The notes below the pieces were generated by a model that was not told the DNA's origin, did not search any database, and was given only the letters and a program-made list of their open reading frames with translations. This document shows positions 6,148 through 34,636 of a stretch of DNA of 44,467 nt, piece by piece. Positions within the stretch are counted from its first letter, which is position 1, and the number at the start of each line of letters is the position of its first letter. The position numbers and the translations under genes are program-made. Where the stretch lies: the NCBI RefSeq assembly GCF_016862795.1, contig NZ_BONQ01000079.1:1-44467 (forward strand), given 5' to 3'. The DNA is from Dactylosporangium siamense. GTDB taxonomy: Bacteria; Actinomycetota; Actinomycetes; Mycobacteriales; Micromonosporaceae.

Positions 6148-6406
6148 TCTGGACCGTGTTGGCCGGGTCTGTCAGCCTCCCGCCCCGCCGCCGGGCGATT
6201 CTTAACCAACCGCTAAACGTCCGTCGCCGGGCGGTGGCAGCCCGAGATTCTCAGGGCCGCGGTGAGCCCGTGCCGGTGGTCGATCTTGCGACCGTGATCG
6301 AAGGATGGCGGCGTGCCGCGGGGGTTGTGCCGCGATTTCGCGCGGGCGTCGGTGTCGAGAGCGGTGCCGGCGGCCGGGACGTCCCGGGCAGGTGGCGGTG
6401 GACGGG

Positions 6407-7741: not shown

Positions 7742-7859
7742 GGATTCAGATGTACCACGGTCGATGGATGGACGTCGCCCCGCCGGTACGAATCGGACGT
7801 TGTGTGATGGAGTTGTCACGCAGGATGCATCTGGGGTCCCGCTCGGGGTGCGCCGGACT

Positions 7860-7865
7860 TACAGT
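7860..7865 (+). promoter_or_regulatory. Predicted -10 element TACAGT of a leaderless eccC transcript
   Basis: TACAGT ends 7 nt before the GTG at 7873 in the 131-bp gap between divergent eccD and eccC. No Shine-Dalgarno sequence precedes the GTG, which fits leaderless translation. A matching element for eccD on the other strand was not convincing. Confidence 0.4.
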
Positions 7866-7872
7866 CTCTGGC

Positions 7873-21137: not shown

Positions 21138-21770
21138 GTGGAACTCGACCACGTCGCGGCCCGGCTCGTCAGCGGCAAGCTCGGCGGCGTCGAGGTCGAG
21201 CGCAACGTCGACCTGAAGCGCATCGAGGCCGCGGTCCGCGAGATCCTCCTGGCCGTCGGCGAGGACCCCGACCGCGACGGACTGCGCAAGACACCCGCCC
21301 GGGTCGCCCGCGCCTACGCCGAGCTTTTCGCCGGCCTGCGCGTCGACCCGGCGCAGGTCCTGTCCACGACCTTCGAGGCGGACCACGAGGAGCTCGTCCT
21401 CGTCCGCGACATCGAGGTCATGTCGATGTGCGAGCACCACCTGCTGCCGTTCCACGGGGTCGCGCACATCGGGTACATCCCCGGCCACGACGGTCGCATC
21501 ACCGGGCTGTCGAAACTGGCCCGGCTCGTCGAGGTGTATGCCCGGCGGCCGCAGGTCCAGGAGCGGCTCAACTCGCAGATCGCCGACCTGCTGATGGCGG
21601 AGCTCGCCCCGCGCGGCGTCATCGTGGTGATCGAATGCGAGCACATGTGCATGTCGATGCGCGGCATCCAGAAGGGTGGCTCGCGCACGATCACGTCGGC
21701 GGTCCGGGGGCTGCTCCGCGACGACGCCAAGTCACGCGCCGAGGCGATGTCGCTGATTTTGCGCGGCTAG
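21138..21770 (+). CDS. folE: GTP cyclohydrolase I, first enzyme of folate synthesis
   Basis: A 210-residue FolE that converts GTP to dihydroneopterin triphosphate. Zinc ligands are visible in [11 protein letters not shown] and in [31 protein letters not shown] and RGVIVVIE are standard. The GTG at 21138 is the only ordinary start that keeps the full domain. The frame stays open upstream to the ftsH stop, so a longer N-terminus from a rare codon cannot be excluded. A strong terminator follows. In M. tuberculosis folP comes next, but here about 12 kb separates folE from folP-folB-folK. Confidence 0.95.
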
Positions 21771-21845: not shown

Positions 21846-21922
21846 CTTGGTTTGGCTGTTTCCTGGGCTCAACCTAGGACCAGGTTTCTTGGTTTGGCTG
21901 TTCCTGGGCTCAGCCCAGGAAC
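21818..21922. repeat. Tandem copies of the terminator hairpin module
   Basis: Copies begin at 21818 (44 bp), 21862 (41 bp) and 21903 (partial, about 20 bp). Each has CCTGGGCT followed by its near-complement, and the first two continue with CCAGGTTT(TT)CTTGGTTTGGCTGTT. The outer hairpins (21815-21837 and 21900-21922) are perfect. The middle one carries substitutions. The third copy overlaps the last codons and stop of the convergent minus-strand gene, so folE and that gene share the array. Confidence 0.8.
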
Positions 21923-23982
21923 AGCACCGCGCCGAAGACGATCATCGGGACCAGGGCGAGCAGGCTGATCGCCATGCCCATCACCGGGGTCCTCGCCGTG
22001 GGCCGCCGGGTCGTCGCGCCGATCGTCAGCCAGCCCAGGCCGAAGGCGAGCGCCGGCAGCACCAGCGCACACGGCACCGCCAGCAGGCTGATCCCCTCGA
22101 ACCGCTCACCGGCCAGCAGCGTCGGCACCTGGACGAAGGCGGCCAGCACCGCGAACGTGAAGTAGATCGCGGCATTGATCCAGGCCCGCGTGCTGGATGC
22201 CGTGCCGGACCGGTCGGGGGCGGCGAGCGCGCCCTCAGACTGCTTCAGGCCGGCTGCTGCCACGCGGAGGGCGTGGGAGACCCTGCCGGGGAGGGACTCG
22301 GGCGCTGGGGGGCTCTGAGGGCTCTGGGGGCGTGCGGTGCCGGTCCCGGTGGCGCCGGTGGAGACGGGGGCGGGCACGCCACTGACGGCCGCCGGCCGGA
22401 CCGGCCCACCGCTGACCTGCGCCGGGCTCTTGGCGTGGCTCGGGACGTAACCCGGTGCCTGGCCCGGGCTCTGCGGCCGGGCCGGGACACCGCTGACCGG
22501 CGGGCGATAGGTCGGCTGCGCGCCCGTCGGGCCGTTGTAGTTCGGGGCGCCAGGGTAGGTCTGGAACGGGCCCATGATCGCGCCCGTGTTGCCCGCGGTG
22601 CTGCCCAGGTACAGGTTGCCGGTCGCCGGCGGGCTGGGGACACCCGGCGCCACCGGCGGTGCACTGACCGGCAGGGTCGCCGTGCGCGAACCCGGCTGCT
22701 GCGGCCAGGTCGTGGCGGGCTCCTGCGCCGCGCCGCGCCGCCGCCCCGCGGGCTGAGCCGCGGGCCGGGCCGCACCCGTCAGCACGGCCGCCGCGGTCTG
22801 CGTCTCCTGCCAGCTCGGCATGAGATCGAACGCCCGGCCGCCCGCCTCCCGGGCGATCTCCGTCAGGTACGCCTGGTGGTGGGCGAGCTTCGCCCGGATC
22901 GCCGACAGGTCGTCGCGGGCGGCCTTCAACGCCGCCTTGTGCTCCGCGACGACCGCGATCACCTCCCGGCGGACCGCGTCGAGCCGCTGCCCCGCCGCGA
23001 CGTAGTTCAGCCACGCGGTGCGACTCGGCTCGCCGACCTGCGCCGGGGGTGCGCCCCAGGGGCCGCTGAGCTGGGCACAGACGCGGCGCACCAGATCGGC
23101 GGGAGGATCCTGGTCGAGATACACCGGGGCGTTGAGCCGGGCCGGGGTCACGCCGGTGCCCGAGAACGTCGCCCCCGGCGGGTCACCCACCCACGCGTGC
23201 GGGTTACGGATCGCGATCTGCGTCGCGTGCGGCAGCGGCGCCTGCGTCGTCTCCGCCGTCAACGGCGGCGGCGGCCACCCCGCTGCGATCAGATGCAGCC
23301 GGCCGGCGGGCCCAGCGTGCGCCAGCCCCGCGATCCTGGCCAGATCCCGGCCCTCGGTGAGCTCAGGAAGGGACGCGATCACGATCAGCAGCGTCGGCCC
23401 CGGGGCGTCGGTGCGGGCGGCGATCCACTGCTCGCCCTCATCCAGCACCGCGCGAAGACCCTCCGCATCACTTACCGGCGCCGGCATGATCGACTCGATG
23501 CCCGCGAACCACCCGAACGTGGACCCCGAGTCCACAGCGTCGATGGCCCGGATCCTCACCGACCCCGGCGGCGACGAGGCGAGCAGCCGAAGCACCAGAC
23601 TGCGCAGCAACCCCGCGACCCGACTGTCCCTGGCATCGGCGTCAATGGCGATGTGCCCGGCCCGCAGCAGCGGCACCACCACCGGGAACCGCGCGTCGTC
23701 CAGCGGATGCGCCTGCCCCACCCGCACAAACGTCGGCGGCAACGGCCCACCGAGCGGCGTGGTCGGCGCGAGCGCGTCCAGCTGCGCACCCAACCAGCCG
23801 GGCGCCAGCTGGTTCGCGTCGGCCCTGAGGCTGGCGGTGAGGTCGTGCTGCTCCGCGTACTGCGAGGCCGGCGCGGCACTCGGCGAATACGCGTCCAGCA
23901 CCGGCCCAGCGGCGGCGACCAGCGCAGCGGTGTGCCGGTGCAGCGCAGCCGCTCGCTCGATCCGTGCCCGCAGGCGTGCCAC
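21910..23982 (-). CDS. FtsK/HerA-like membrane protein without a P-loop, function unknown
   Basis: I chose the GTG at 23982 (690 residues), preceded by AAAGGGG at good spacing; an in-frame extension upstream reads as non-coding. The central part (about residues 90-260) resembles an FtsK/SpoIIIE ATPase core: VVVPLLRAGHIAIDADARD, then GLLRSLVLRLLASSPPGSVR, then TLLIVIASLPELTE with a sensor-like RLHLIAAGW. The Walker A position reads IDADARDSR, with no GKS/T. A coiled coil follows (RREVIAVVAEHKAALKAARD), then a long Pro/Gly/Thr-rich linker and three C-terminal membrane helices. I infer a catalytically dead NTPase fold tethered to the membrane from its C-terminus. It is convergent with folE and divergent from the 24412 gene. 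Confidence 0.55.
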   Translation of the reverse strand: MARLRARIERAAALHRHTAALVAAAGPVLDAYSPSAAPASQYAEQHDLTASLRADANQLAPGWLGAQLDALAPTTPLGGPLPPTFVRVGQAHPLDDARFPVVVPLLRAGHIAIDADARDSRVAGLLRSLVLRLLASSPPGSVRIRAIDAVDSGSTFGWFAGIESIMPAPVSDAEGLRAVLDEGEQWIAARTDAPGPTLLIVIASLPELTEGRDLARIAGLAHAGPAGRLHLIAAGWPPPPLTAETTQAPLPHATQIAIRNPHAWVGDPPGATFSGTGVTPARLNAPVYLDQDPPADLVRRVCAQLSGPWGAPPAQVGEPSRTAWLNYVAAGQRLDAVRREVIAVVAEHKAALKAARDDLSAIRAKLAHHQAYLTEIAREAGGRAFDLMPSWQETQTAAAVLTGAARPAAQPAGRRRGAAQEPATTWPQQPGSRTATLPVSAPPVAPGVPSPPATGNLYLGSTAGNTGAIMGPFQTYPGAPNYNGPTGAQPTYRPPVSGVPARPQSPGQAPGYVPSHAKSPAQVSGGPVRPAAVSGVPAPVSTGATGTGTARPQSPQSPPAPESLPGRVSHALRVAAAGLKQSEGALAAPDRSGTASSTRAWINAAIYFTFAVLAAFVQVPTLLAGERFEGISLLAVPCALVLPALAFGLGWLTIGATTRRPTARTPVMGMAISLLALVPMIVFGAVLFLG

Positions 23983-24084
23983 CGTGCCCCTTTCCGCCCT
24001 TGCCGATCCAGCAGATGCGGGAACGGTAACGCAGACTGGGGAAGCAGTCAGTAGGCGCACTGGGAGTCTTGCGTTCCCGCAGGT

Positions 24085-24112
24085 GCGGGCTCTGGTCCTG
24101 ATACCCCCACCA
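24085..24112 (+). other. Possible tRNA 3'-end remnant
   Basis: CCTGATACCCCCACCA (24097-24112) reads like the 3' half of a T-stem, an acceptor strand TACCCCC, a discriminator A and CCA. The 5' T-stem half (GCGGG, 24085-24089) pairs at only four of five positions and the loop is not TTCRANN. No matching 5' acceptor lies about 70 nt upstream, so this is not a working tRNA. tRNA 3' ends are common integration sites, which is why it is recorded. Confidence 0.25.
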
Positions 24113-24186
24113 CGTCCCTCCGATCTTGCGCACCTTGCGATCGGTACTTGCGACGAGCCTTTGCGCTGACGTTCGCGGGTGTTCCC

Positions 24187-24411: not shown

Positions 24412-25035
24412 GTGGACCCATCGAAGCCGAACGAGCCGAGCATCGATCAGGGCAGGTCAATCCCCCGATCCCGCCCAGCCGACGACGAGGTCCTCGAAGG
24501 CGAGATCATCGGCAAGGACGAGCCCCTGCGCCGACCGGGCCCCGTCCCTCCATCGCCGCCGAAGCCACCAAAGCGAGGCCTTGGCGTACGCAAGACCCTG
24601 CTGATCGTGGTAGCAGTTGTGGCACTGGGCCTGTGCCTCGGCGGTTCGATTACCGCATACGTCCTGTACGACAAGGCCACCAGACCTGACCGCAGCAGTC
24701 CCACGGTGACCCTCCAACAGTATCTGAACGCACGGATTAATGCGCACGACGATGCCAAGGCTTCCGTATTTGTCTGCGGCTCTCCGGAGCTGAATGTGAT
24801 CGATTCGGAAATTGACAGGATTCGAGACTTGGAGGCAAAATTCGATATCGCCGTTACCGCCTCGTTCTCCGACATGGCGCTCGCCTCGGCGGGAGAAGTC
24901 TCGGAGTTGCGCCTAAAAATCAACTTCGTGATTCCTGAAGAAGATGAACGCAAGTCGGTTCTGGTGCAAGACTGGAAATTTGAAATGGTTTACGCCAATG
25001 GCTGGCGAGTGTGCGGTGCGGAGAAAACGTACTAA
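24412..25035 (+). CDS. Single-pass membrane protein with a probable NTF2-like ectodomain, unknown function
   Basis: A 207-residue protein with a Pro-rich cytoplasmic N-terminus (about 60 residues), one membrane helix (LLIVVAVVALGLCLGGSITAYVLY, about residues 64-87) and an exported domain of about 115 residues. The ectodomain pattern (helix VTLQQYLNARINAHDDAKAS, a Cys pair at FVCGS and WRVCGAE, and a final WRVCG strand) resembles the NTF2-like domains common in actinobacterial envelope proteins. Its second half is visibly richer in A/T than the surrounding chromosome, suggesting transfer. It ends 1 bp from the convergent T4SS-like operon. VirB8-type proteins share this architecture, so it could be an accessory of that operon; this is inference. 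Confidence 0.6.
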   Translation: MDPSKPNEPSIDQGRSIPRSRPADDEVLEGEIIGKDEPLRRPGPVPPSPPKPPKRGLGVRKTLLIVVAVVALGLCLGGSITAYVLYDKATRPDRSSPTVTLQQYLNARINAHDDAKASVFVCGSPELNVIDSEIDRIRDLEAKFDIAVTASFSDMALASAGEVSELRLKINFVIPEEDERKSVLVQDWKFEMVYANGWRVCGAEKTY

Positions 25036-25036
25036 T

Positions 25037-25666
25037 CTATTCGATCCAGATTAAGTGAATAGGCAATTCGAGAGTCTTCGGTGCCTGCCCGCTCCATGCC
25101 CATCGGTACCAGTCCAGCTCCGTGCAGATGCGAACGCAGATGTCGCCCTCTGCGCTATTGTAGGGTTCTGTTACAACCCGCAGGTCCCGTTCGTCTCGTC
25201 CGACCTTGTTATCTGGCCCCGGCAGCCGTACCACCCGCAGTCCGGTGACGATTCCGACGTCATGTACTGGCCGTGGTGGTCGAGCCGGTGGCGCATCGAG
25301 CGACACCAGCCGTCCCACAAGCTCCGAACGGCCTCCGGTCGCCTCCACTGTCGCCGAGATTCGCTCGACCCAGACGCGCTCGATCGGCACCAGTGGTGCG
25401 AAGACCTCGGTCTGTTCGGATTCGGCCCGGTACCACTCCTGCTCAGGCAGTACCGGTACATAGGTACGGCTTGCTTGGATCACCGCGTCGTCAACACGCA
25501 GGTCCCCGCGCCAGCCTAGACCCGGTAGCCCGACCATCGCGCGTCGACCACGCAAATCGCGAACCGCCGCGGCCGGCACCAGTTCAATTCCCGCGGGAGC
25601 GCGTTCGGTGCTGCCGGCGATCAGATCCCAATCGGGAAGGTCGTCATCGTGGGGAAGATCGCTCAC
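25037..25666 (-). CDS. Hypothetical protein, last gene of the T4SS-like operon
   Basis: This 209-residue protein has no signal peptide or membrane helix and no motif I recognise. It is rich in Trp, Val and Arg, with an acidic N-terminus (MSDLPHDDDLPDWDL) and several short beta-like stretches such as GIVTGLRVVRLPGPDNKVG. The GTG start overlaps the stop of the upstream peptidase gene (GTGA). That ties its translation to the secretion operon and suggests a role there, for instance as a cytosolic accessory or a substrate. It ends 1 bp from the convergent 24412 gene. Confidence 0.65.
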   Translation of the reverse strand: MSDLPHDDDLPDWDLIAGSTERAPAGIELVPAAAVRDLRGRRAMVGLPGLGWRGDLRVDDAVIQASRTYVPVLPEQEWYRAESEQTEVFAPLVPIERVWVERISATVEATGGRSELVGRLVSLDAPPARPPRPVHDVGIVTGLRVVRLPGPDNKVGRDERDLRVVTEPYNSAEGDICVRICTELDWYRWAWSGQAPKTLELPIHLIWIE

Positions 25667-26805
25667 GGCTCACCTCCGAGCGGCGCGCCCATCAGCTGCA
25701 TGAACTGCACTGGGTCGACCGCGCCGTTCTTGCTCGAATCGTTGTGCAGATGCGTTTCGAAGTGTAGATGAGGGCCTGAAGAGTGGCCGGTTGTGCCCGA
25801 AAGGCCGATTTCCTGACCTGGCGCGACGCTTTGACCGACGATGACGTTCGGCTGCTTCACCATGTGGCAGTATCGAGTGATGATGCCATTGGCATGCAGA
25901 ATGTCGACGAACCACCCGCAGCCCCGAACCGACGGTGAGCCGTCCCGGTCGCAACCCCAGGGCTTTCCGTTCGGGCCGATTGCATCGCAGCGCACCTTTA
26001 TGACTCGACCCGCCGCGGCCGCGTGAATGACGGTGCCTCTCGGCACGATGAGATCGACACCCTGGTGCGTGGGGCGGGATGCCGTCCGGAACCCAGAGCC
26101 GACTTTTCCTTTGACCGGGGCAGTCCATCCTGATGCGGCGATCTGCCCCACGTTGACGCATTGCAACTCGGTCTGGTCTCCGACAGCGCGCGCGGCACCG
26201 CCGGTCAAAGAGTTGACGACCGTCGACGCCAGTTCCTCATGCTTCGCATATGCGTTGGGGTACGCGCTGCGCTGCACCTTCTGCGCGGCGCGAGTCAGAC
26301 TCATAGTCTGCCAACCCGGGATCGTAATTAGCTTGTCGTAGAACTTTCGCGACGAGTATTTCGGATCCATGATCTGCTCGGGCGTGCCCCAACCCGTGCT
26401 GGGCCGTTGCTGGAACAGGCCAAGCGAGTCGTGGTCATTTCGAGTGCCAAGATTTGGTAGATTGCGCAGCCAGGACTCTTGCATCGCCGTGGCGACGGCG
26501 ATGACCCAGCCTCGCGGGGGCACCTTGAGATCCTGCCCAACCCGAACGATGATTGCCGCGTTACGGACCTGCTCCGGAGTGAGTCTGCGGTGGTTTGGCA
26601 TTTCCGCCGAAACATCGACCAGCTTGCCATTCCCGCAGCCCGAGTCATACGTGACCGTCTTGTTCGCCGCGTCGAGGAAGAACGACACCACGCCACCACT
26701 GCAGCACACCAGCACCAATACTGCGGCAAGCGCGATCAGCAGTGCTGGGCGGAGTTTGCGCTGGCCCTCCTCACCGGGGGCGCTGGCGGTCTCGAAATCC
26801 GTCAC
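25663..26805 (-). CDS. Membrane-anchored peptidoglycan hydrolase (lysozyme-like plus M23 LytM), VirB1-like
   Basis: From the GTG at 26805 the product has 380 residues. That start overlaps the upstream stop (GTGA) and has GGGAG 5 nt before it; an in-frame TTG at 26838 is weaker. A short cytoplasmic tail and one membrane helix (about residues 20-43) precede a lysozyme/transglycosylase-like region (AVATAMQESWLRNLPNL, DSLGLFQQRPSTGWG) with a plausible catalytic Glu. The C-terminal half is an M23/LytM endopeptidase with zinc motifs H-x3-D (THQGVDLIVP) and HLHFE. Gram-positive conjugation systems use such two-domain hydrolases to open the wall for the channel. The position after the VirB8-like gene fits that role. 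Confidence 0.82.
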   Translation of the reverse strand: MTDFETASAPGEEGQRKLRPALLIALAAVLVLVCCSGGVVSFFLDAANKTVTYDSGCGNGKLVDVSAEMPNHRRLTPEQVRNAAIIVRVGQDLKVPPRGWVIAVATAMQESWLRNLPNLGTRNDHDSLGLFQQRPSTGWGTPEQIMDPKYSSRKFYDKLITIPGWQTMSLTRAAQKVQRSAYPNAYAKHEELASTVVNSLTGGAARAVGDQTELQCVNVGQIAASGWTAPVKGKVGSGFRTASRPTHQGVDLIVPRGTVIHAAAAGRVIKVRCDAIGPNGKPWGCDRDGSPSVRGCGWFVDILHANGIITRYCHMVKQPNVIVGQSVAPGQEIGLSGTTGHSSGPHLHFETHLHNDSSKNGAVDPVQFMQLMGAPLGGEP

Positions 26806-27344
26806 GCCATCTCCCAGTCCAAGGAGGTGACTTGCCAACGCCCATTGATTGCCTCGAGCTGCAGGACGATTGTCCCGCCGTCGGCCGGTATCTTTGCGGT
26901 CGCAACCTGACCGAAATCCTCAAGGGCGGTCGGACCAGTGATCGTGGCAGCAGGCACATCGCTCGGGTCCGTATCAGCGAGGTCTTCCATCAACTCGCTC
27001 GACGCGTCCGGCTTCAGCCCCGCTCGCCACTGTTCGCCGGAGACGCCGGGTTTGCGTATCCATGCCTTCGCAAAGCGTGTGGCGACCGCGGTTGCGTCAG
27101 CTGCACCCTTGCTGAGCGAAGGAGCTGCCGAGGCCGACTCATCTTGCACCCCATCGTCGCCGAGCGAGCTGAACGGATCCGGGGTCTTGGTTGCAGGAGC
27201 TACAGTCGGACCGAGCGCGTCGTTGTCCGACTGGTCGCCCTCCGTGAAGATGGTACGGCCGAATCCCACTGCCACGAGCACCACGACGATGAGCGCCATC
27301 GCAATGCCGTACCGCGTGCCGAGTAGACGCAGAACCGTACGCAT
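26802..27344 (-). CDS. Single-pass VirB8/TcpC-like component of the T4SS-like operon
   Basis: This 180-residue protein has a short basic N-terminus, one membrane helix (GIAMALIVVVLVAVGFG, about residues 13-30), a Ser/Thr/Pro/Asp-rich linker, and an exported domain of about 110 residues. A leading helix (AVATRFAKAWI) followed by strands ending in GRWQVTSLDW gives an NTF2-like look. VirB8 and TcpC proteins share this fold and form part of the channel core. Sequence similarity alone is thin; the call rests on architecture plus its place between the VirB6-like and hydrolase genes. It begins 6 bp after the VirB6-like stop and overlaps the hydrolase start. Confidence 0.55.
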   Translation of the reverse strand: MRTVLRLLGTRYGIAMALIVVVLVAVGFGRTIFTEGDQSDNDALGPTVAPATKTPDPFSSLGDDGVQDESASAAPSLSKGAADATAVATRFAKAWIRKPGVSGEQWRAGLKPDASSELMEDLADTDPSDVPAATITGPTALEDFGQVATAKIPADGGTIVLQLEAINGRWQVTSLDWEMA

Positions 27345-27350
27345 GGATTC

Positions 27351-29339
27351 TCACCCCGGCAGGTTTGCCGACTCCGGTCGTCGCGCCGGCGTCCGGTCCT
27401 GTGTGGACCGATCTGAGTCGGGTCGATAGATGGAATACGACGGCGCGGTCTCTGCTGGCGAGTCCGGCTCTTCCCACACCGGCTCACGCCGTCGACGCTG
27501 TGGACCGTCCTGCCGCGTCGGCCGCTCTTCAGGCCTGGCCACGCGTTCGCCGGTCTCCGAGGATCGTTCGCCAGCGCCGGTCGAACGTTCACTGCCGCCC
27601 ACCGACAACGGGTCTTCGTCCCGGGACTCCGGCCGTTGCCGGACCGGACCGGCCTCGCCGCGCCGCTGTGGTTCGTTCGTCCCCCCAGCGTCGACGACCT
27701 TAAGTGCGGCGGCTTGGCGGACATCGCGCAGGAACAGCCTGTGCCAGCCGCCGACTGAGGTGATTGCCTTGGTGGAGTCTTTTCCGCCAAGCTGTGTGAT
27801 CCGGCGATACGGTCGCAGCAACAGCCAGCCGACGATCCCGGTCAGCCAAATTAGCAGAACCTGCAACCAGCCGGCCAATGAGGCGGTATCAAGAATCAGG
27901 CTCACTGCGAGTAGGTAGATCGCTGAACCGGTTCCAAAGATAATGATGTTGAACATTGCGGCAATAACTGCATTGCCGAGCCGTCGTAGACCGGCGTTGG
28001 CTGGTCGGAGCAGTCCGACCGTTCCTAGAATTGGCGAGGCGATTACGGCCCACCGGAAGATCAGGAATCCAAGGATTACTAGCACGGAGGCTGTAATGTC
28101 AAAAAGGGCGAAGAATAGTGCCGAAAGAATCGCCAGAAATCCTGCGCCAACTCGATCCATCCCTCTGCTGCCTTGCAGGTGCTGATAGGCTTCTGGATCT
28201 TCGGTCTTTATTTGTTCGGCGATCCGCATCCATCGCTGCTGCTTTTGCTCGGTGATGGTCTTTCGCATCGTAGATCCGATTGATGGGCCCGGCTTGCCGT
28301 CCCGAATGCGCGCCTCTTCTTCGGCAGCCGCTCGGCGTTCATCTGCTCTAATGCTCTGGATGTCCTGCCAGGAAAATGACTTTGCATCGTAGAGTGCGGG
28401 CCCGTATTTAGTAGCGGTGCTGTTGTCTGCAGAACCGAGCGTGCCTCGGAGCCAATTTCGGTACAGGAGCCCGTCCACGACAGTATCGCTGGCTCGGGCT
28501 GCCGGGAGGCGGATATCTTGGCAGGCTTTAGGATCGATATTGCGGCATTTTTCGGGTGGGATTGTTTCGTTGGGCGGACCAACGGCGTCGTGAATGACTC
28601 CAAGACTAGAAATTAATGTCCGATCTGCAATTCCTGCGGACCATGTGGGCCATGCGGCAATTGCTGTGATGATTACCATCACGAAAAGCGCCCAACCCGC
28701 CGTCGTGACGGCATTAGACAGGTCTGATTGCCTTGAGCGCCATAGAAGATATAGTCCGACAATGGTCAGCGTCACCGCACCGAATGCCGTAAATACTTTC
28801 GAATACACTGCTTTGGTGGCTGTTTCGACGAGTGGGTCTGCCCATCCCCACATGTATGTAGGATCCCATGCACGCTCGCGTACTGCGTTGGATGCTCCGA
28901 TTATGCCTGTGGCGATAAGAAACTCGCCATTTGCTACTGTGTTCTCGAATTCGGCGCTTGGGTTGGTTACGACTGACGCGCATTTAAGGTCATATGTTGT
29001 AAAGTCGTAGCCAGCGTAGCCATACTCGCTGTGCCGAAACCAGAGCCGGGAGCCCCGTGATGCCTCAGGCTCGGTAGCGAACCAGCCGGCCACGCCCGAG
29101 TCTGGGGCGCTTGGTGTTGGTGCGTCCAAGCAACTCACCCGGGACTGGACATCAACCTGTAGCCGATCCGCGCAGTTCTGGAAATTGCCCTGAACCCGCC
29201 ACTCTTCAACAGAGCACAGCCCACCCTCCGGTGCCTGCACCGGGCCGGGCGCTGCGGCCGCTGGCCCCGCTGGCCCGGCGAACAACGTTGCCACTGCGGT
29301 CACGATGATGACAGCTGCGTACACGGGCAGGCGTCTCAC
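27351..29339 (-). CDS. VirB6-like polytopic membrane protein
   Basis: The GTG at 29339 overlaps the VirB4 stop (GTGA) and gives 662 residues. It begins with a signal-like helix, then a Cys-containing extracellular region (~100 residues). Two further helices follow, then a ~130-residue hydrophilic loop. A cluster of four or five helices comes next (AGFLAILSALFFALFDITAS, VLVILGFLIFRWAVIASPIL, AVIAAMFNIIIFGTG, LQVLLIWLTGIVGWLLL). It ends with ~100 charged, Arg/Glu/Ser-rich residues, probably disordered and cytoplasmic. Conjugative systems of monoderms place such a protein next to VirB4, where it forms the inner channel. The central region (about 27.85-29.0 kb) uses A/T-ending codons freely, unlike its ends and VirB4, so its base composition is mosaic. 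Confidence 0.68.
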   Translation of the reverse strand: MRRLPVYAAVIIVTAVATLFAGPAGPAAAAPGPVQAPEGGLCSVEEWRVQGNFQNCADRLQVDVQSRVSCLDAPTPSAPDSGVAGWFATEPEASRGSRLWFRHSEYGYAGYDFTTYDLKCASVVTNPSAEFENTVANGEFLIATGIIGASNAVRERAWDPTYMWGWADPLVETATKAVYSKVFTAFGAVTLTIVGLYLLWRSRQSDLSNAVTTAGWALFVMVIITAIAAWPTWSAGIADRTLISSLGVIHDAVGPPNETIPPEKCRNIDPKACQDIRLPAARASDTVVDGLLYRNWLRGTLGSADNSTATKYGPALYDAKSFSWQDIQSIRADERRAAAEEEARIRDGKPGPSIGSTMRKTITEQKQQRWMRIAEQIKTEDPEAYQHLQGSRGMDRVGAGFLAILSALFFALFDITASVLVILGFLIFRWAVIASPILGTVGLLRPANAGLRRLGNAVIAAMFNIIIFGTGSAIYLLAVSLILDTASLAGWLQVLLIWLTGIVGWLLLRPYRRITQLGGKDSTKAITSVGGWHRLFLRDVRQAAALKVVDAGGTNEPQRRGEAGPVRQRPESRDEDPLSVGGSERSTGAGERSSETGERVARPEERPTRQDGPQRRRREPVWEEPDSPAETAPSYSIYRPDSDRSTQDRTPARRPESANLPG

Positions 29340-32300
29340 CTGTCGACCTCCGGGTCGTCGTCGTGGATGTCCACGACCTCGCCGCCGACGGTGCCGTCGA
29401 CGTGTACACCCCCCGGTGTCGTGTCGAGGTAGCGCAGGAGGTCGCGGACGTAAGAGACGTCGACGCGGACCTTCTGCACCCGGCCGTCCACGTCGCGCAT
29501 GACGAACTCGCGGAATCCCAGTCGCGAGGACGAGGACGTGTCGACCTGGGAGAGTGCCGCGAGCGTCTGCTCGTAACCGACGTCGGTCGGGACGCGCAGC
29601 AGGCGCAGCGCCTCGGCGGCGATCTCGGAGTCCTCGGCGATGCGGCCGACGAAGACGGTGGAGACGAGGTTCTGCACGTCGAGGCCGAGGATGTCGCGGG
29701 GGTTCTGGGAGGCGACCAGCGCCGCGAGGTTCCACTTGCGGGAGTCCCGGGCGAGCCGGACGAGGAAGGAGCGGCCCGAGCGCCAGCCCTCCATGAAGTG
29801 GGCCTCGTCCAGGCCGACGAGCTTGCGTTGGGTCATGTCGCCGCCGTAGCAGCGGCGGACGGCCAGGCGGTGGGCGGTGTGCAGCATCGGGAGGGCGAGG
29901 GACTCCTCCGCGGACCAGTACTCGCGCTCGATCTTCAGGTCCGGCAGGCGCAGGCCCGCCATGGTGATGACGGTGAGGGTCGCGTCGGCGCCGAGGAGGC
30001 CGGGGGGTGGGGTGCCGAAGAAGAGCATGGCGAGGGGCATCTCGGCGGTGTCCAGGAGGAGGTTGCCCAGCTCCAGGGCATCGTGGTCGCCGGTGTCGCG
30101 CAGGGAGCGGATGACGTCCTCGAGGGTCGAGGACTCCTCGGCCGGCACCTGACGGACGGCGTGGCGCAGCATGGTGGCCGTGGACGCCTCGCGGGCGACC
30201 TGCGGCGGGACGAGCATCATGCAGATGTCCTGCACGAGCATGCGGCGCTCGGCTCGCGCGTTGGAGATGGCAATCTCAAACTCGCGGTCGCCGCCTGAAC
30301 CAGCAGCATAATGACCGCGTTGCGGCGTGGGGATCAGGGAGTACGGCGCCAGCGTGCCCTGCTCGGAGCCGGTGAGGTTCAGGACGCGCGAATACGGCGC
30401 CAGCTCCGGCATCGCGCACAAGCGGGCCAGGGGGCCGGAGGGGTCGAGCAGCGTGACCTGGACCCCGCGGCGGGCGTTCAGGTAGCCCAGGGCGCCCATG
30501 AGGGTGGACTTGCCACCGCCGGGCTCGGCGACGAAGACGGCCAGGCCGGAGCGCTCGCGGACCTCCATGGGGAAGTGCAGGTCGAGGAAGACCGGGCGGC
30601 GGGAGGTGCCGGCGGTGCGGCCGATGAGGTCGCCGCGGCGGTCGCCGACGGTCGAGGCCGCCTGGGGCAGGGCGGCGGCGAAGAGCTTGACCGGCATGCG
30701 GCGCAGGTAGCCGGTGTTGGCGAGGGGTTCGCCGGGGATGAACTCGCGGGCCAGCCAGTCCTGCTGCTTCGGGTGTTGCAGGGCGACCCGCATCTCCCGG
30801 GAGTACATCTGGGTGACCCGGCGGGCCCGCTCCAGGCACTCCTCGCGGGTGCGGCCGCCGACGGCGATGCGGTGCCAGCCGTGCGCGCGGGAGGAGTCGA
30901 CGGGAAGCCCGGTGCTGATCTCGTCGCCGATGGTGAGGGCGCGCTTCGCGAGGCGTTCCAGCTCCGGGGGAGCGTCGATGCCGTGCTCGCTGTAGTCGGC
31001 CTGCTGGGAGCGGATGAGTCTGAGCCGGTGCTCGAGGTTGCGGAACGAGTCGTTGGGGCCGAGGATGTCGATCCGCGAGGAGAGCTCCATCGGCCAGGGC
31101 AGCCGCTCGTGGAAGTGCAGCCAGGGCTCGTGCCGCTCGGGGATCTCCAGGGGCTCCATCCGGCCGACGGTGAGGACCGCGACGTGCCGTTCCTCGCCGC
31201 TGACCCGGTTGACCAGCTTGACCGTGGAGCCGTAGGGCGTGCGGTACCGCTCGACCTGCTCGGTCATGGCCAGCAGGTCGCCGCGGTCCCAGGAGCCGTC
31301 GAGGGTGGTGATCTGGCCCGGCGGTGACATGCACAGCGCGACGGAGCGGTAGAGCAGCCATTCCAGCTCGAACGCGGTGACCCGGCGGCCGCGCATGCCG
31401 AACGCGCCGAGGACCTCGTCGAACTGCTCGACGGTGCGGGCCATCCTGCGCCGTTCGGCGTCGGCGACGCCGCGGCGGAAGAGGGAGCCGATGCGCTCGG
31501 CGAAGGTGTCGCCGAGGGTGCGCCGGGCGAAGGAGATGCCGAGGTAGGTCTGGCCCTCGGCGTGGTTGATCGCCAGGAGGTGCTTCTGGGCGGCGACCAG
31601 GTGGTCGGCCCATGACGGGCCGGCGCCGGCGGACGGCAGGGGATACGGCGTGTTGTTGTCCACCACGCGGGCCCACTGGTCGGCCGGGAACGGCTTGGTG
31701 GTGCGGCGCAGGTGCAGGCGGAACCCGGCGAGGCCGGCGTACTGCTCGGAGATCGCCGACAGCAGCGCCTCACGCTCGGCGTCCGGGCGGAACGCCCAGC
31801 GGACCTCGGGCAGCCAGTACCAGGCGGTGACGGTGTTCGGGGTGAACGTCAGGTGCCCGGCGATCTCGGTGATCGCCAGGTCGATCGACGCCTGGCGGTC
31901 CTTGTGCCGGGGTTTCGGGGTGCGATCCAGCGGCGTCCGCCGGCCGGGCTTGACCGCGGGCAGGGCCCTGGCCGGCCGCGGCGGCTGCTGCCCCGGGGCG
32001 TCCTGCGGGTTCCGGCGAGCCGGTGGCACCGCCACCACTTTGCCGTTCGTTTTGGCGGGTGTACGGCTGGTGCCTCCGCCCGACGGTCGACTGGGCAGCC
32101 GTGATGAACGATCCGGCTGCCGCTGCGATGGCTGCCGTTCGGTGGGTTGCCGACGGTCGGCCGGCGGCCGCTCGGCCGTCCCGGGCCGGCCGAGCATGCG
32201 GGGATGCTCGCCGCTCCACTCCAACACGTCCGGGTGATCGCGGTCCGCGAGCCCGCCGCGGTCGAGCTGCTCCGGGGCCGGGGGCAGCGCCGGCGGGCCG

Positions 32301-32752
32301 GCCTCGATCGGCCGTCGCTCGACTGGCGTGCGGTCCAGCCGGCGTCGCTCGTAGGCGCCGGGTGGCAGCGCGTCGGTCCGTGGCACCACCCGTTTGGGGG
32401 CGCGCAGGTCCTCCGGGGCCCGGCCGGCGCCGGACGACGGGGCCGCCGACACCGGGATGCCGGAGATCGGCCGGCTGCTGCCGGGATCGAGGGCCTTCAC
32501 CCGGTCGCGGGGCCGCCCGCTGGGCGGGTCGTCGAACAGGCCGAGGAACGGCGAGTCGACGTCCGCCGCGGCTGATGGGGGAGTCGACGCGCCGGCCGGG
32601 CGATCGGCCGCCGGGCCGCGGAACATCGCCACGCGACCGCCCTCGGCGGCGGCCCTCAGTCCGCCATCGTAGTCAGACGTGTGCGCAGCGTCGTCATCCG
32701 TGTCCGGCTGATTGGAGTAGCCCCCAGTGCGACGGGGAGGCGGGTTGGTCAT
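29336..32752 (-). CDS. VirB4-type conjugation/secretion ATPase
   Basis: An 1138-residue P-loop ATPase. The first ~285 residues are Pro/Arg-rich and low in complexity, an unusually long extension. After it comes the VirB4 N-domain (HLTFTPNTVTAWYWLPEVRW and RLHLRRTTKPFPADQWA). The ATPase follows, with Walker A around K748 (FVAEPGGGKSTLMGAL) and Walker B D982-E983 in LVGLDEAHFMEGW. The segment RKWNLAALVASQNPRDILG is typical of VirB4/TraC/TraE. VirB4 powers T4SS assembly and transport at the inner face of the membrane. The start overlaps the PrgI-like stop (ATGA) and the stop overlaps the VirB6-like start (GTGA), so it is the hub of a coupled operon. Confidence 0.88.
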   Translation of the reverse strand: MTNPPPRRTGGYSNQPDTDDDAAHTSDYDGGLRAAAEGGRVAMFRGPAADRPAGASTPPSAAADVDSPFLGLFDDPPSGRPRDRVKALDPGSSRPISGIPVSAAPSSGAGRAPEDLRAPKRVVPRTDALPPGAYERRRLDRTPVERRPIEAGPPALPPAPEQLDRGGLADRDHPDVLEWSGEHPRMLGRPGTAERPPADRRQPTERQPSQRQPDRSSRLPSRPSGGGTSRTPAKTNGKVVAVPPARRNPQDAPGQQPPRPARALPAVKPGRRTPLDRTPKPRHKDRQASIDLAITEIAGHLTFTPNTVTAWYWLPEVRWAFRPDAEREALLSAISEQYAGLAGFRLHLRRTTKPFPADQWARVVDNNTPYPLPSAGAGPSWADHLVAAQKHLLAINHAEGQTYLGISFARRTLGDTFAERIGSLFRRGVADAERRRMARTVEQFDEVLGAFGMRGRRVTAFELEWLLYRSVALCMSPPGQITTLDGSWDRGDLLAMTEQVERYRTPYGSTVKLVNRVSGEERHVAVLTVGRMEPLEIPERHEPWLHFHERLPWPMELSSRIDILGPNDSFRNLEHRLRLIRSQQADYSEHGIDAPPELERLAKRALTIGDEISTGLPVDSSRAHGWHRIAVGGRTREECLERARRVTQMYSREMRVALQHPKQQDWLAREFIPGEPLANTGYLRRMPVKLFAAALPQAASTVGDRRGDLIGRTAGTSRRPVFLDLHFPMEVRERSGLAVFVAEPGGGKSTLMGALGYLNARRGVQVTLLDPSGPLARLCAMPELAPYSRVLNLTGSEQGTLAPYSLIPTPQRGHYAAGSGGDREFEIAISNARAERRMLVQDICMMLVPPQVAREASTATMLRHAVRQVPAEESSTLEDVIRSLRDTGDHDALELGNLLLDTAEMPLAMLFFGTPPPGLLGADATLTVITMAGLRLPDLKIEREYWSAEESLALPMLHTAHRLAVRRCYGGDMTQRKLVGLDEAHFMEGWRSGRSFLVRLARDSRKWNLAALVASQNPRDILGLDVQNLVSTVFVGRIAEDSEIAAEALRLLRVPTDVGYEQTLAALSQVDTSSSSRLGFREFVMRDVDGRVQKVRVDVSYVRDLLRYLDTTPGGVHVDGTVGGEVVDIHDDDPEVDR

Positions 32753-33123
32753 GCGAGATCACCGGTGAGTTCCGGACGGATCCGCACCCTGGTGGCCACG
32801 AGCCTGGCATCGCGCTGCTCGTGGCTCGGCTCCCGGGTGTGGCGCCAGTCGGTCAGGGCTGTGCGGACCACCATCCGGGCGGGACGGTCGGGGTCGACGT
32901 AGCGGAAGATCAGCGACGTCGCCACGATCGCGAGGGCGATCTCGTAGGCGGGGAAGAAGTCGACCTGCAGCGTGATCATGTAGCGGATGAACATGAACAA
33001 CGGCACCAGCAGTGCGAACACCCCGTACTGCGCATAGGGCAGCTGGACAGGCAGGGTGTAGCCGGGCGGCCCGAGGTAGACCAGACGGGCCCGGTAGATG
33101 TCATCGTCGGTGCGCAGCCGCAT
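32749..33123 (-). CDS. PrgI/VirB3-like small membrane protein
   Basis: A 124-residue protein with one or two closely spaced membrane helices (VFALLVPLFMFIRYMITLQV and EIALAIVATSLIFRYVDP) early in the chain, followed by a basic cytoplasmic tail containing DWRHTREPSHEQRDARLV. Small proteins of this kind, called PrgI or VirB3, sit directly before VirB4 in Gram-positive conjugation operons and help anchor it. Here the stop overlaps the VirB4 start (ATGA). The Shine-Dalgarno sequence before the ATG is weak. Confidence 0.68.
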   Translation of the reverse strand: MRLRTDDDIYRARLVYLGPPGYTLPVQLPYAQYGVFALLVPLFMFIRYMITLQVDFFPAYEIALAIVATSLIFRYVDPDRPARMVVRTALTDWRHTREPSHEQRDARLVATRVRIRPELTGDLA

Positions 33124-33137
33124 TCTTGTTCACTCGT

Positions 33138-33163
33138 CTCAGCAGTGAGGCTCAGCAGTGAGG
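33138..33163. repeat. 13-bp perfect tandem duplication in the operon spacer
   Basis: CTCAGCAGTGAGG occurs twice head to tail (33138-33150, 33151-33163) in the 59-bp gap between the VirB2-like and PrgI-like genes. It looks like a recent slippage event and slightly lengthens the spacer. Confidence 0.85.
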
Positions 33164-33182
33164 CCGGGGAGGCAAGGCAGCC

Positions 33183-33500
33183 CTAGTTGGTTCCGAAGAT
33201 CAGCTTGACGAGCGAGTCGCCGAAGAAGAACAGCGACGCGGCGCCGGCGACGAACGCCAGCCCGATGATCGCGATGGCGGAGCTCGTGAGCACCCGCGAG
33301 ACCTCGCCCTTGCTGGCCCGGCCGATGAAGATGACGCCGAGCACGGCGAGCAGGATCGGCACGATCTTCTGGATGAAGAAGTCCAGGACGCCGTTCGTGT
33401 TGATGGTCGGCTGTGGGGACGGCGTCGGCGCCAGGGCTATGGCGTCCGCGATGCGGGTGGTCTCCCCCCACAACGCCTGGCCGATCTCCAACAACATCAT
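33183..33500 (-). CDS. Two-helix VirB2/TrbC-like small protein, first gene of the T4SS-like operon
   Basis: From the ATG at 33500 (GGGGAGG 4 nt upstream; a second ATG follows immediately) the product has 105 residues. A short N-terminal part with a Pro/Thr-rich stretch leads into two hydrophobic helices (FFIQKIVPILLAVLGVIFIG and AIAIIGLAFVAGAASLFFFG) joined by a small basic loop (GRASKGEVSR). Size and layout match VirB2/TrbC-type pilin-like or channel proteins. In-frame sequence upstream to 33578 is Arg-rich and lacks family character. It opens the minus-strand operon that runs to 25037. Confidence 0.65.
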   Translation of the reverse strand: MMLLEIGQALWGETTRIADAIALAPTPSPQPTINTNGVLDFFIQKIVPILLAVLGVIFIGRASKGEVSRVLTSSAIAIIGLAFVAGAASLFFFGDSLVKLIFGTN

Positions 33501-33607
33501 CAGACCTCCCCGGAGGCGCGACGGGCGAGGTGCACGCCGCGCGTTAAGCCTCGCTGATAAGACGACCCGGTCATACAACCCCGGCTGCTGTGTCGCCCTC
33601 CAGCGGA

Positions 33608-33613
33608 ACCTTA
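33608..33613 (-). promoter_or_regulatory. Candidate -10 element of the T4SS-like operon
   Basis: On the minus strand this reads TAAGGT, a TANNNT match about 108 bp before the first operon ATG. A GGGC-AAAC-GCCC inverted repeat (33617-33628) lies just upstream of it and could be an operator. No convincing -35 was found, so this is tentative. Confidence 0.3.
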
Positions 33614-33641
33614 TCCGGGCGTTTGCCCTGCTAAATGCCCA

Positions 33642-33669
33642 TTGTCGGGTTTAACGGTCCGAATAACGT
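33642..33669 (+). promoter_or_regulatory. Candidate sigma70-like promoter toward folP
   Basis: TTGTCG (33642-33647) and TAACGT (33664-33669) are separated by 16 bp on the plus strand, about 118 bp before the folP GTG. With folE 12 kb away, folP needs its own promoter, and this is the best match in the divergent 287-bp gap. Confidence 0.35.
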
Positions 33670-33787
33670 TCACTTGCAGAGAGTACGTTGCAGCCCTCTT
33701 TCCAACAAGCTGACCGGTCCGTGATCAGTGTTGCGGATGAGGCGCGTGCGCGGTTACCCCTGGTGGGGGACAGGTGACTGACCGAAG

Positions 33788-34636
33788 GTGAGTACCTTCA
33801 TTCAGGTGACGCTCCTTCGCCGTCCTTCCCCCGTGGTCATGGGGGTGCTCAACGTGACTCCGGACAGCTTCTCCGACGGCGGCCGCTATGCCGGGCTCGG
33901 CGCCGCGGTCGACCACGCCATGCAGATGGTCGAGGAGGGCGCCGACGTCATCGACATCGGCGGCGAGAGCACCCGCCCGGGCGCCGACCGGGTCGACGCC
34001 CGGACCGAGCTGGACCGGGTCCTGCCGGTGATCCGCGAACTGGCCGCGGCCGGGGTCGTGATGAGCATCGACACGACCCGTGCGGCGGTCGCCGCCGAGG
34101 CCGTCGCCGCCGGGGTCGCCCTGGTCAACGACGTGTCCGGCGGTCTCGCCGACCCGGACATGGCCCGCGTGGTCGCCGACGCCGGCTGCCCGTGGGTGCT
34201 CATGCACTGGCGGGGGCATTCCCGGCGAATGACCGATTTAGCCCTTTACGACGATGTCGTCAAAGAGGTTTGTGCCGAACTGCTGGAGCGCGTCGACGAG
34301 GCCGTCGCCGCCGGCGTCGCACCCGAACGGCTGATCCTCGACCCCGGCCTGGGGTTCGCCAAGAAGGCCGAGCACACCTGGCGGCTGGCCGCGCACCTGC
34401 CGGAGCTGGTCGCGCTCGGGTACCCCGTCCTCGTCGGATCGAGTCGCAAGTCCCACCTCGGCCGGCTGCTGGAGGCGTCCGACGGGTCCGCCCGCCCGAC
34501 CGGGGACCGTGAGGCGGCCACGATCGCCACGACCGTGCTCTCCGTCGCCGCGGGTGCCTGGGGTGTGCGGGTCCATGAGGTCCGTGGCAACGTTGATGCG
34601 ATCAAGGTGTGGCAGGCCGTACAGGCGGCGCGATGA
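33788..34636 (+). CDS. folP: Dihydropteroate synthase
   Basis: A 282-residue cytosolic enzyme that joins p-aminobenzoate to dihydropterin pyrophosphate; it is the sulfonamide target. Both signatures are clear: VMGVLNVTPDSFSDGGRY and DIGGESTRPGADRV. MSIDTTRAAVAAEA, LVNDVSGG, DPGLGFAKKAEHTW and VGSSRKSHLG complete the TIM barrel. The GTG at 33788 is the most upstream reasonable start, but the Shine-Dalgarno sequence is weak. It begins the folP-folB-folK-DUF3180 run, each gene overlapping or nearly touching the next. It is divergent from the T4SS-like operon. Confidence 0.95.
   Translation: MSTFIQVTLLRRPSPVVMGVLNVTPDSFSDGGRYAGLGAAVDHAMQMVEEGADVIDIGGESTRPGADRVDARTELDRVLPVIRELAAAGVVMSIDTTRAAVAAEAVAAGVALVNDVSGGLADPDMARVVADAGCPWVLMHWRGHSRRMTDLALYDDVVKEVCAELLERVDEAVAAGVAPERLILDPGLGFAKKAEHTWRLAAHLPELVALGYPVLVGSSRKSHLGRLLEASDGSARPTGDREAATIATTVLSVAAGAWGVRVHEVRGNVDAIKVWQAVQAAR

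Follow-up and report, generated by a model that had tools for sequence, protein, structure and literature searches.

Domesticated conjugation machines are rare. In Streptomyces, the cmdABCDEF operon (SCO4126–4131) resembles the SLP2 transfer genes; deletion mutants are defective in sporulation, chromosome segregation and septation but unaltered in plasmid transfer (PMC2782261), and cmdBCDEF was linked to actinorhodin output in a later screen (PMC6585502). The archaeal Ced/Ted system is a domesticated conjugation apparatus with VirB2, VirB4 and VirB6 homologues and no relaxase, for which DNA transfer has been reported (PMC9905601). Type IV secretion systems (T4SSs) of Patescibacteria are chromosomal and related to the MPF-FATA type, and most of their clusters lack a relaxase (PMC12102498). 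A survey of actinobacteria listed 17 putative integrative and conjugative elements (ICEs) of T4SS type (PMC3218068), and a virB4-like open reading frame (ORF), MiLup08_42651, was recorded among genes of unknown function in Micromonospora lupini Lupac 08, in the context of plant interaction (PMC4182475). Here, we describe a seven-gene operon on the minus strand of Dactylosporangium siamense contig NZ_BONQ01000079.1 (C79). The whole 44,467-nucleotide stretch analyzed is called the window; the genome measures 12.7 Mb.

Most Micromonosporaceae keep the operon as a lasting part of their chromosome, and in most of the loci read it lies beside folP. Judged from its sequence, it is the operon of a monoderm (MPF-FATA-like) type IV secretion channel. 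Our overall explanation, to which we give a probability of roughly 0.72, is that of a chromosomal channel operon, vertically inherited under constraint and domesticated as a host-serving machine. A family-wide operon of this kind was not described in the literature searched, most subscription journals being outside the search; only the bare virB4 annotation of M. lupini was found in print, which is not proof of novelty. That ORF is very probably the same gene as virB4 of the window; locus L023 of our sample comes from that strain.

Organization of the Operon

An earlier note on this DNA had placed seven minus-strand genes at 25037–33500, in the order VirB2-, VirB3-, VirB4-, VirB6- and VirB8-like, muralytic enzyme and g1, and gene reading together with family scans bore this out. 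The genes (lengths in amino acids, aa) and the region upstream of them are as follows.

33501–33787, no strand: intergenic region separating folP from the divergent virB2-like gene, with a presumed promoter role
33183–33500, minus: g7, VirB2-like, 105 aa; hydrophobic stretches at residues 36–65 and 67–98; present in 63 of 80 sampled loci, the upstream part being missing in the other 17
32749–33123, minus: g6, VirB3/PrgI/TcpE-like, 124 aa, highly conserved; two hydrophobic stretches; 70–96% identity in 12 other rows
29336–32752, minus: g5, VirB4 ATPase, 1138 aa; Pfam AAA_10, E = 5e-24; PDB VirB4 4ag5, E = 9e-5
27351–29339, minus: g4, VirB6-like polytopic protein, 662 aa; eight hydrophobic windows, some overlapping; conserved cysteines
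26802–27344, minus: g3, VirB8-like bitopic protein, 180 aa; assigned from an AlphaFold2 (AF2) model and hhalign to its plasmid counterpart
25663–26805, minus: g2, membrane-anchored, lysozyme/transglycosylase-like plus M23 enzyme, 380 aa; Peptidase_M23, 3e-22
25037–25666, minus: g1, function unassigned by family, 209 aa, alpha/beta, without a transmembrane (TM) segment; AF2 confidence (pLDDT) 83; present in 78 of 80 loci

The VirB2-like gene begins with ATGATG at 33500, after a GGGGAGG ribosome site; the listed ORF 33139–33471 was rejected as this gene, its frame being non-coding by base composition. From sequence reading, the start of the VirB6-like gene was placed at GTG 29339 instead of 29735 and that of the muralytic enzyme at GTG 26805. 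Most junctions had been described as ATGA/GTGA overlaps, and four of the six are indeed 4-base overlaps (ATGA at 32749–32752; GTGA at 29336–29339, 26802–26805 and 25663–25666). The remaining genes are separated by spacers of 59 bp (VirB2/VirB3) and 6 bp (VirB6/VirB8). The 8-mer CGTACGCT occurs in 51 of 62 intergenic control regions, with TTGT upstream of it in 15 aligned rows.

Base composition is uneven along the operon: the G+C content of third codon positions is 0.62–0.73 in g1–g4 (25037–29339) and 0.93 in virB4. In five of nine pairs of loci, the synonymous divergence of g1, g2 and g4 is about 2–8 times that of virB4, with amino acids conserved.

Identities of the Proteins

Three features expected of a monoderm T4SS are found together: a VirB4 with intact motor motifs, VirB3- and VirB6-like proteins encoded beside virB4, and a VirB1-like muralytic enzyme. 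Alignment confirmed the residues named in the earlier note, K748 in Walker A and D982-E983 in Walker B. The closest titled match of VirB4, from Dactylosporangium aurantiacum, is 90% identical over the full length. An N-terminal extension of about 275 residues is mostly missing in three aligned plasmid homologues. Fifteen draft contigs (L010, L028, L031, L033 and eleven more) start just inside virB4, near this long extension, and the extension region may be the cause of these assembly breaks.

The VirB2-, VirB3-, VirB6- and VirB8-like proteins of the window gave no Pfam hits, and the last three were compared by profile with plasmid proteins. The VirB3-like protein matched the plasmid protein of the same position (hhalign E = 4e-14); the Nonomuraea protein of that position in turn reached TcpE at E = 0.008, below the cut-off. 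For the VirB6-like protein the match to plasmid VirB6-like proteins was strong (E = 3.5e-70), that to NCBIfam CD3337/EF1877 fell below the cut-off (E = 0.0017), and the plasmid counterparts themselves reach TrbL/VirB6 only below cut-off. The VirB8-like protein matched its plasmid counterpart (E = 1e-23) and failed to match TcpC-type sequences of another family (3% probability). Its AF2 model has a TM helix (residues 11–31), a disordered linker and a confident C-terminal domain of three helices followed by four strands, which we take to be the topology expected of VirB8 with its NTF2-like domain. PDB profiles gave no meaningful match to the VirB6- or VirB8-like protein.

The VirB2, VirB3 and VirB8 labels are thus putative ones, drawn from topology and gene order, joined for VirB3 and VirB8 by the profile–profile matches; the VirB2-like label was given without a profile comparison to plasmid VirB2-like proteins. 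The lysozyme-like label of g2 comes from reading its sequence, without a Pfam hit, and is likewise tentative. For g1, Pfam and NCBIfam returned no family, and it did not match the one plasmid gene to which it was compared.

Conservation in the Micromonosporaceae

To define the locus sample, titled genomes were scanned with a four-row VirB4 alignment; at least 596 pattern matches and 512 relatives were obtained, and the best 80 were kept. These loci, nearly all from Micromonosporaceae, were picked for having VirB4 and therefore test position, not frequency. All seven genes are present in 62 of the 80, in the same order and on the same strand in every one of the 62. The gene folP is adjacent and divergent (within 900 bp) in 61/80. 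The operon had been placed between folE and folP: folP is its direct neighbor, and folE is not adjacent, being separated from the operon by an Rv0361-type gene and an FtsK/EccC-like gene. Across the sample, the Rv0361-like gene lies next to g1 in 77/80, an FtsK/EccC-like hit is found in 70/80, and folE falls inside the fetched flank in 61/80. The upstream part of the operon is missing in 17 loci, 15 of which are cut off where the contig ends. L018 offers too little sequence for a verdict, and in L066, an actinobacterial metagenome-assembled genome, folP is 1.4 kb away. The genera represented include Dactylosporangium, Planosporangium, Virgisporangium, Rugosimonospora, Micromonospora, Salinispora, Plantactinospora, Actinoplanes and Verrucosispora.

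Frequency was estimated from an even draw of 61 Micromonosporaceae genomes. VirB4 is present in 57 (53 of the 56 of good quality; 41 of 44 genera) and carries no internal stops. Each genome has one high-identity copy, 67–95% identical to its relatives; one genome (G024) adds two weak matches. Three genomes, two of them from one genus (G174 and G011; G013), carry the operon with no folate gene in the 20-kb stretch fetched, so its position is not universal in the family. At two loci of one family genus (L115 and L114, genus g12), PPE- and WXG100-type genes lie close to the operon, and folate genes are missing from the 20 kb examined.

Selection and Inheritance

The ratio of nonsynonymous to synonymous change (omega) was calculated for nine close pairs, giving 61 gene-pair values over the seven genes. 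Omega was below 0.3 in 58 of them; the exceptions were 0.36 (g7, L053–L056) and, in a Salinispora pair, 0.40 for g3 and 0.45 for g2. Within the operon, g1 gave 0.05–0.18; for comparison, folP gave 0.06–0.31 (seven pairs) and the Rv0361-like neighbor 0.09–0.42. The catalytic motifs are kept: among VirB4 orthologues, Walker A (GGGKST) is present in 73/73 and GLDEAH in 72/73; among muralytic enzymes, the M23 motif HxxxD is found in 76/76, HxH in 75/76, QES in 76/76, an SxGLFQQR-type motif in 75/76 and the longer string ATAMQES in 69/76. Distances of g1–g5 and g7 (g6 was left out) follow those of folP, with Mantel r of 0.80–0.93 over 53 taxa and none of 999 permutations as high. Distances that track folP, low omega and kept motifs together point to vertical inheritance under constraint, and thus to domestication.

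These results bear on the explanation that the operon is an integrated or decaying conjugative element, one of the readings offered in the earlier note. Homology to transfer-like operons of plasmids and the lower G+C content of the distal genes in this genome would fit it. Against it stand the near family-wide presence at mostly one site, the intact motifs and the folP-like distances. Furthermore, as the earlier note had observed, no VirD4, relaxase or integrase was found among the family-scanned genes of the window (the scan did not cover every ORF), and the window has no tRNA. A recent insertion is contradicted by the 57/61 presence and the common site, and this distribution is not that of a mobile conjugative element; att repeats were not searched for. 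We regard an ICE, intact or decaying, as very improbable. The same note had proposed that the operon be called domesticated if it stood at the same place in many genera, under purifying selection and without a relaxase. Place and purifying selection were found as proposed; as for the relaxase, none is among the scanned window genes, whole genomes not having been searched. The domesticated channel is the one of its readings that the data favor.

Plasmid Relatives Carry a Coupling ATPase

VirB4 matches 336 plasmid records, all at less than 60% identity (30–37% among the 40 listed), and the window proteins match their plasmid homologues at E values of 4e-14 to 1e-136. Eleven plasmid loci, all from actinomycetes and mostly linear, were opened. 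Their operons (Streptomyces pRVR2, pSSFR2 and pSM17C; Nonomuraea, Pseudonocardia and Rhodococcus) share with that of the window the order of genes that runs from virB2-like to muralytic enzyme. They differ in being extrachromosomal, in having a coupling ATPase (11/11) and a ParA gene (9/11 in the stretch read), and in the enzyme itself, which is a C40/NlpC-type peptidase in 8/11 and a DD-metalloendopeptidase in 3/11, where the window has M23. The mobility of these plasmids is inferred, because MOB-suite classes one of the 11 as mobilizable and the other 10 as non-mobilizable.

A coupling-ATPase profile was built from four plasmid proteins, which leaves seven of the 11 plasmid loci independent of it. 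It matched at all 11, including a Pseudonocardia p1 protein annotated as hypothetical, and at none of 100 chromosomal loci (the 80 titled loci and 20 others, some of them short); within the window only EccC of the ESX cluster matched. Plasmid coupling proteins fall into two types that are related to each other (E = 2e-6), and that of pSSFR2 is 75% identical to that of pSM17C. When one plasmid coupling ATPase was run against the D. siamense genome no match was found, in a search without a positive control.

Kinship with transfer operons raises a further explanation, a domesticated DNA-exchange machine of the Ced/Ted kind that would import or export chromosomal DNA between hyphae without relaxase or VirD4. 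It would share with Ced/Ted its core and its absences (VirB2, VirB4 and VirB6 homologues; no relaxase; chromosomal location) as described for them (PMC9905601), and the relatives of the operon are themselves transfer-like. However, the plasmid coupling motor is the very part not found at the 100 chromosomal loci, and family scans revealed no known DNA-uptake protein among the seven genes. We consider this explanation unlikely.

A VirB4 tree of 47 rows was calculated (15 of the 80 loci, three further family genomes, the window, 17 other chromosomal sequences and the 11 plasmids). Micromonosporaceae grouped with families f13 and f11 (f-numbers are family labels) with support of 100/100, long branches being flagged. 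Family f15 fell beside the Rhodococcus–Pseudonocardia plasmid group with weak support (85/70).

VirD4 and a Second T4SS

Another suggestion had been that the DNA-processing genes lie elsewhere in the genome. VirD4 (PF02534) is present in 38/61 family genomes and missing from 22 of the 57 that carry VirB4, nine of the 22 being single-contig assemblies. D. siamense has one VirD4, on a separate 12.4-kb contig (C202), and a single AAA_10 match at E = 1e-6. Five VirD4 regions (L146–L150), those of G003 and G020 among them, were opened, and an SCO6880-type gene was near VirD4 in every one (recognized by NCBIfam in three and by BLAST cluster in two). In D. siamense, G044 and G010, the order is SCO6880-family gene, VirB4-like ATPase half (below curated cut-offs), VirD4. 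The D. siamense example is as follows.

L146 (contig C202) 283–5368, no strand given: second T4SS, consisting of an SCO6880-family protein, a VirB4-like ATPase half and VirD4; found again in L147 and L149

With an SCO6880-type gene near it in all five opened genomes, VirD4 seems to be part of this second T4SS. The idea of a distant VirD4 as partner of the operon is weakened by this and by the 22/57 genomes in which it is missing, and the suggestion of DNA-processing genes elsewhere is not supported. A related explanation holds that the operon is a resident helper channel, used by mobilizable elements that bring their own relaxase and coupling protein. The D. siamense VirD4 on its separate contig, in a genome with a single AAA_10 match at that threshold, would suit such an arrangement. 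Nevertheless, in D. siamense, G044 and G010 VirD4 has its own split VirB4-like pair next to it, and long purifying selection for the benefit of an element is hard to expect; we judge a helper channel quite improbable.

Relatives in Other Families

Wider draws were made from the order and the class; their counts cover matching genomes and are not family frequencies. Of the 150 genomes drawn from the order, 53 match VirB4, and 19 of these are Micromonosporaceae. Families f13 and f11 (61–64% VirB4 identity) have a common locus, flanked by hisG/ribA-side genes and by DUF1844/SpoU-side genes (six loci read). Family f15 (about 40% identity; 18 matching genomes) has its own, partly common locus: of six loci, all have the same gene after the hydrolase, four an RNB gene and four a CT398/RNase H-phosphatase pair. 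These two chromosomal groups keep the operon minus g1, each at its own common loci, g1 not having been detected at the f13, f11 and f15 loci. In the class draw, 36 of 197 genomes match VirB4. Thirteen listed genomes of f8 were without a VirB4 match, and one more gave a marginal match.

Chromosomes of f34 (L127–L133), perhaps streptomycetes, carry a T4SS cluster of another lineage, with TcpC, small proteins, VirB4 and a large VirB6-like protein, near Tad/Flp-type pilus genes. The sole AAA_10 match of four f34 genomes belongs to this TcpC–VirB4 cluster, and VirB4 of L130 is nearest to Xylanimonas and Rhodococcus plasmids (40–56% among the 40 listed).

A Possible Role in the Host

From the functions of the families, a VirB4 hexamer would energize a platform that the VirB3-, VirB6- and VirB8-like proteins form in the inner membrane, local opening of the wall would fall to the anchored lysozyme/M23 enzyme, and VirB2-like subunits may line or lengthen the passage. 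That the machine serves the host is what vertical inheritance and purifying selection, with no plasmid-type coupling ATPase beside the operon, would imply. By likeness to cmdABCDEF, we tentatively favor a part in the mycelial life cycle, with chances somewhat short of even: the channel could act in aerial hyphae or spore septation, or where chromosomes or envelope material are sorted or passed from one compartment to another. If a DNA motor is needed, FtsK-family ATPases of the host are candidates.

The two operons are alike in being chromosomal and conserved, in encoding a VirB4-like ATPase with membrane proteins and in their kinship with linear-plasmid transfer genes (PMC2782261). The window operon is probably not the cmd operon itself, a comparison made through SLP2 and that description and not with cmd sequences. 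The VirB6-like protein of the window touches an SLP2 protein at E = 6e-4. Published cmdB primer strings agreed with nine loci at 19–22 of 31 letters, which is background, the unrelated control L007 being one of the nine; a pair of lysines spaced 314 residues apart, sought as a mark of cmd identity, was not found. Ced/Ted (another domain and envelope; PMC9905601) and the T4SSs of Patescibacteria (another phylum and life style; PMC12102498) are likened to the operon by description only.

Several observations weigh against our explanation or against the developmental role. The developmental role is an analogy with cmd. The authors of the cmd study tie that operon to SLP2 and to SCO6878/6880/6881 (PMC2782261), and the SCO6880 type is separate in Micromonosporaceae; the SLP2 ATPase gave no match to VirB4 of the window at E = 0.01. 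WhiG-like boxes are present in 0/62 control regions. Loose WhiA-like and BldD-like patterns occur in 21/62 and 26/62, the chance level for such short patterns, counted without a shuffled control. VirB4 relatives reach 28–30% identity in f31 (15 genomes) and mostly 30–32% in f34 (13 genomes; some 120 residues aligned; one at 36%), which does not establish a developmental rule for actinomycetes as a whole. Two loci (L029 and L072) have 10 kb of upstream sequence without g6, g7 or folP. Four genomes lack VirB4: G005 (69% complete), G038, and G023 and G054, whose common genus suggests a loss there. Finally, the coupling profile gives weak matches to ATPase regions in 61/61 family genomes (best E values of 5e-19 to 2e-4). 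In that search 18 candidates per genome were scored, in frames that ranged from 284 aa to roughly 1,800 aa, and matches were left untyped; a genuine coupling gene of the plasmid type may underlie the match in G059 (4.7e-19, 632 aa). Since such matches occur in every genome, a recruited FtsK-family motor is possible.

Protein export would also be a host function: the channel would release enzymes or toxins to the medium or pass them to neighboring cells, with substrates entering independently of VirD4. VirD4-independent T4SSs exist, Ptl being one (PMC12857230); a wall-cutting enzyme is built into the operon, and g1 is a possible adaptor. On the other hand, family scans showed none of the seven genes to be effector-like, the faster-evolving convergent neighbor resembles Rv0361 and not a toxin, and an exported substrate is not known. 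We hold export to be improbable.

Surroundings of the Operon

The genes nearest the operon are as follows.

33788–34636, plus: folP, named in the earlier note by sequence reading without a family scan; direct, divergent neighbor of the operon
24412–25035, plus: Rv0361-type bitopic membrane protein, convergent; NF051431 (NCBIfam), E = 4e-5, below cut-off
about 21910–24150, minus: FtsK/EccC-like protein without a recognizable Walker A, with C-terminal TM helices; EccCa, E = 0.06 only; start uncertain, the ORF extending to 24336
21138–21770, plus: folE; GTP_cyclohydroI, 6e-76

The Rv0361-type and FtsK/EccC-like proteins are, from their sequence and place, candidate members of the system. The FtsK/EccC-like protein was rejected as a degenerate coupling protein, since BLAST comparison with two plasmid coupling ATPases and with EccC gave nothing significant. 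An ESX/type VII cluster (4843–11823) lies some 13 kb away from the operon; it has subtilase, EccD and EccC, the last (7750–11823) a protein of 1357 aa with three FtsK stretches.

Implications

The operon represents a T4SS without a coupling ATPase that is constrained about as strongly as folP across nearly a whole family. A domesticated channel that moves chromosomal DNA for the host, or aids passage between hyphal or spore compartments, with neither relaxase nor dedicated coupling protein, is an improbable reading. If true, a DNA-moving channel would give bacteria a counterpart of the archaeal Ced system, and the related operons at other housekeeping loci in other families would speak of repeated or ancient domestication. 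VirB4-based ICE screens would count a core chromosomal gene of the Micromonosporaceae as a mobile element. Micromonospora, Salinispora and other genera include cultivable strains, so that the host role of a conjugation channel is directly testable in this family.

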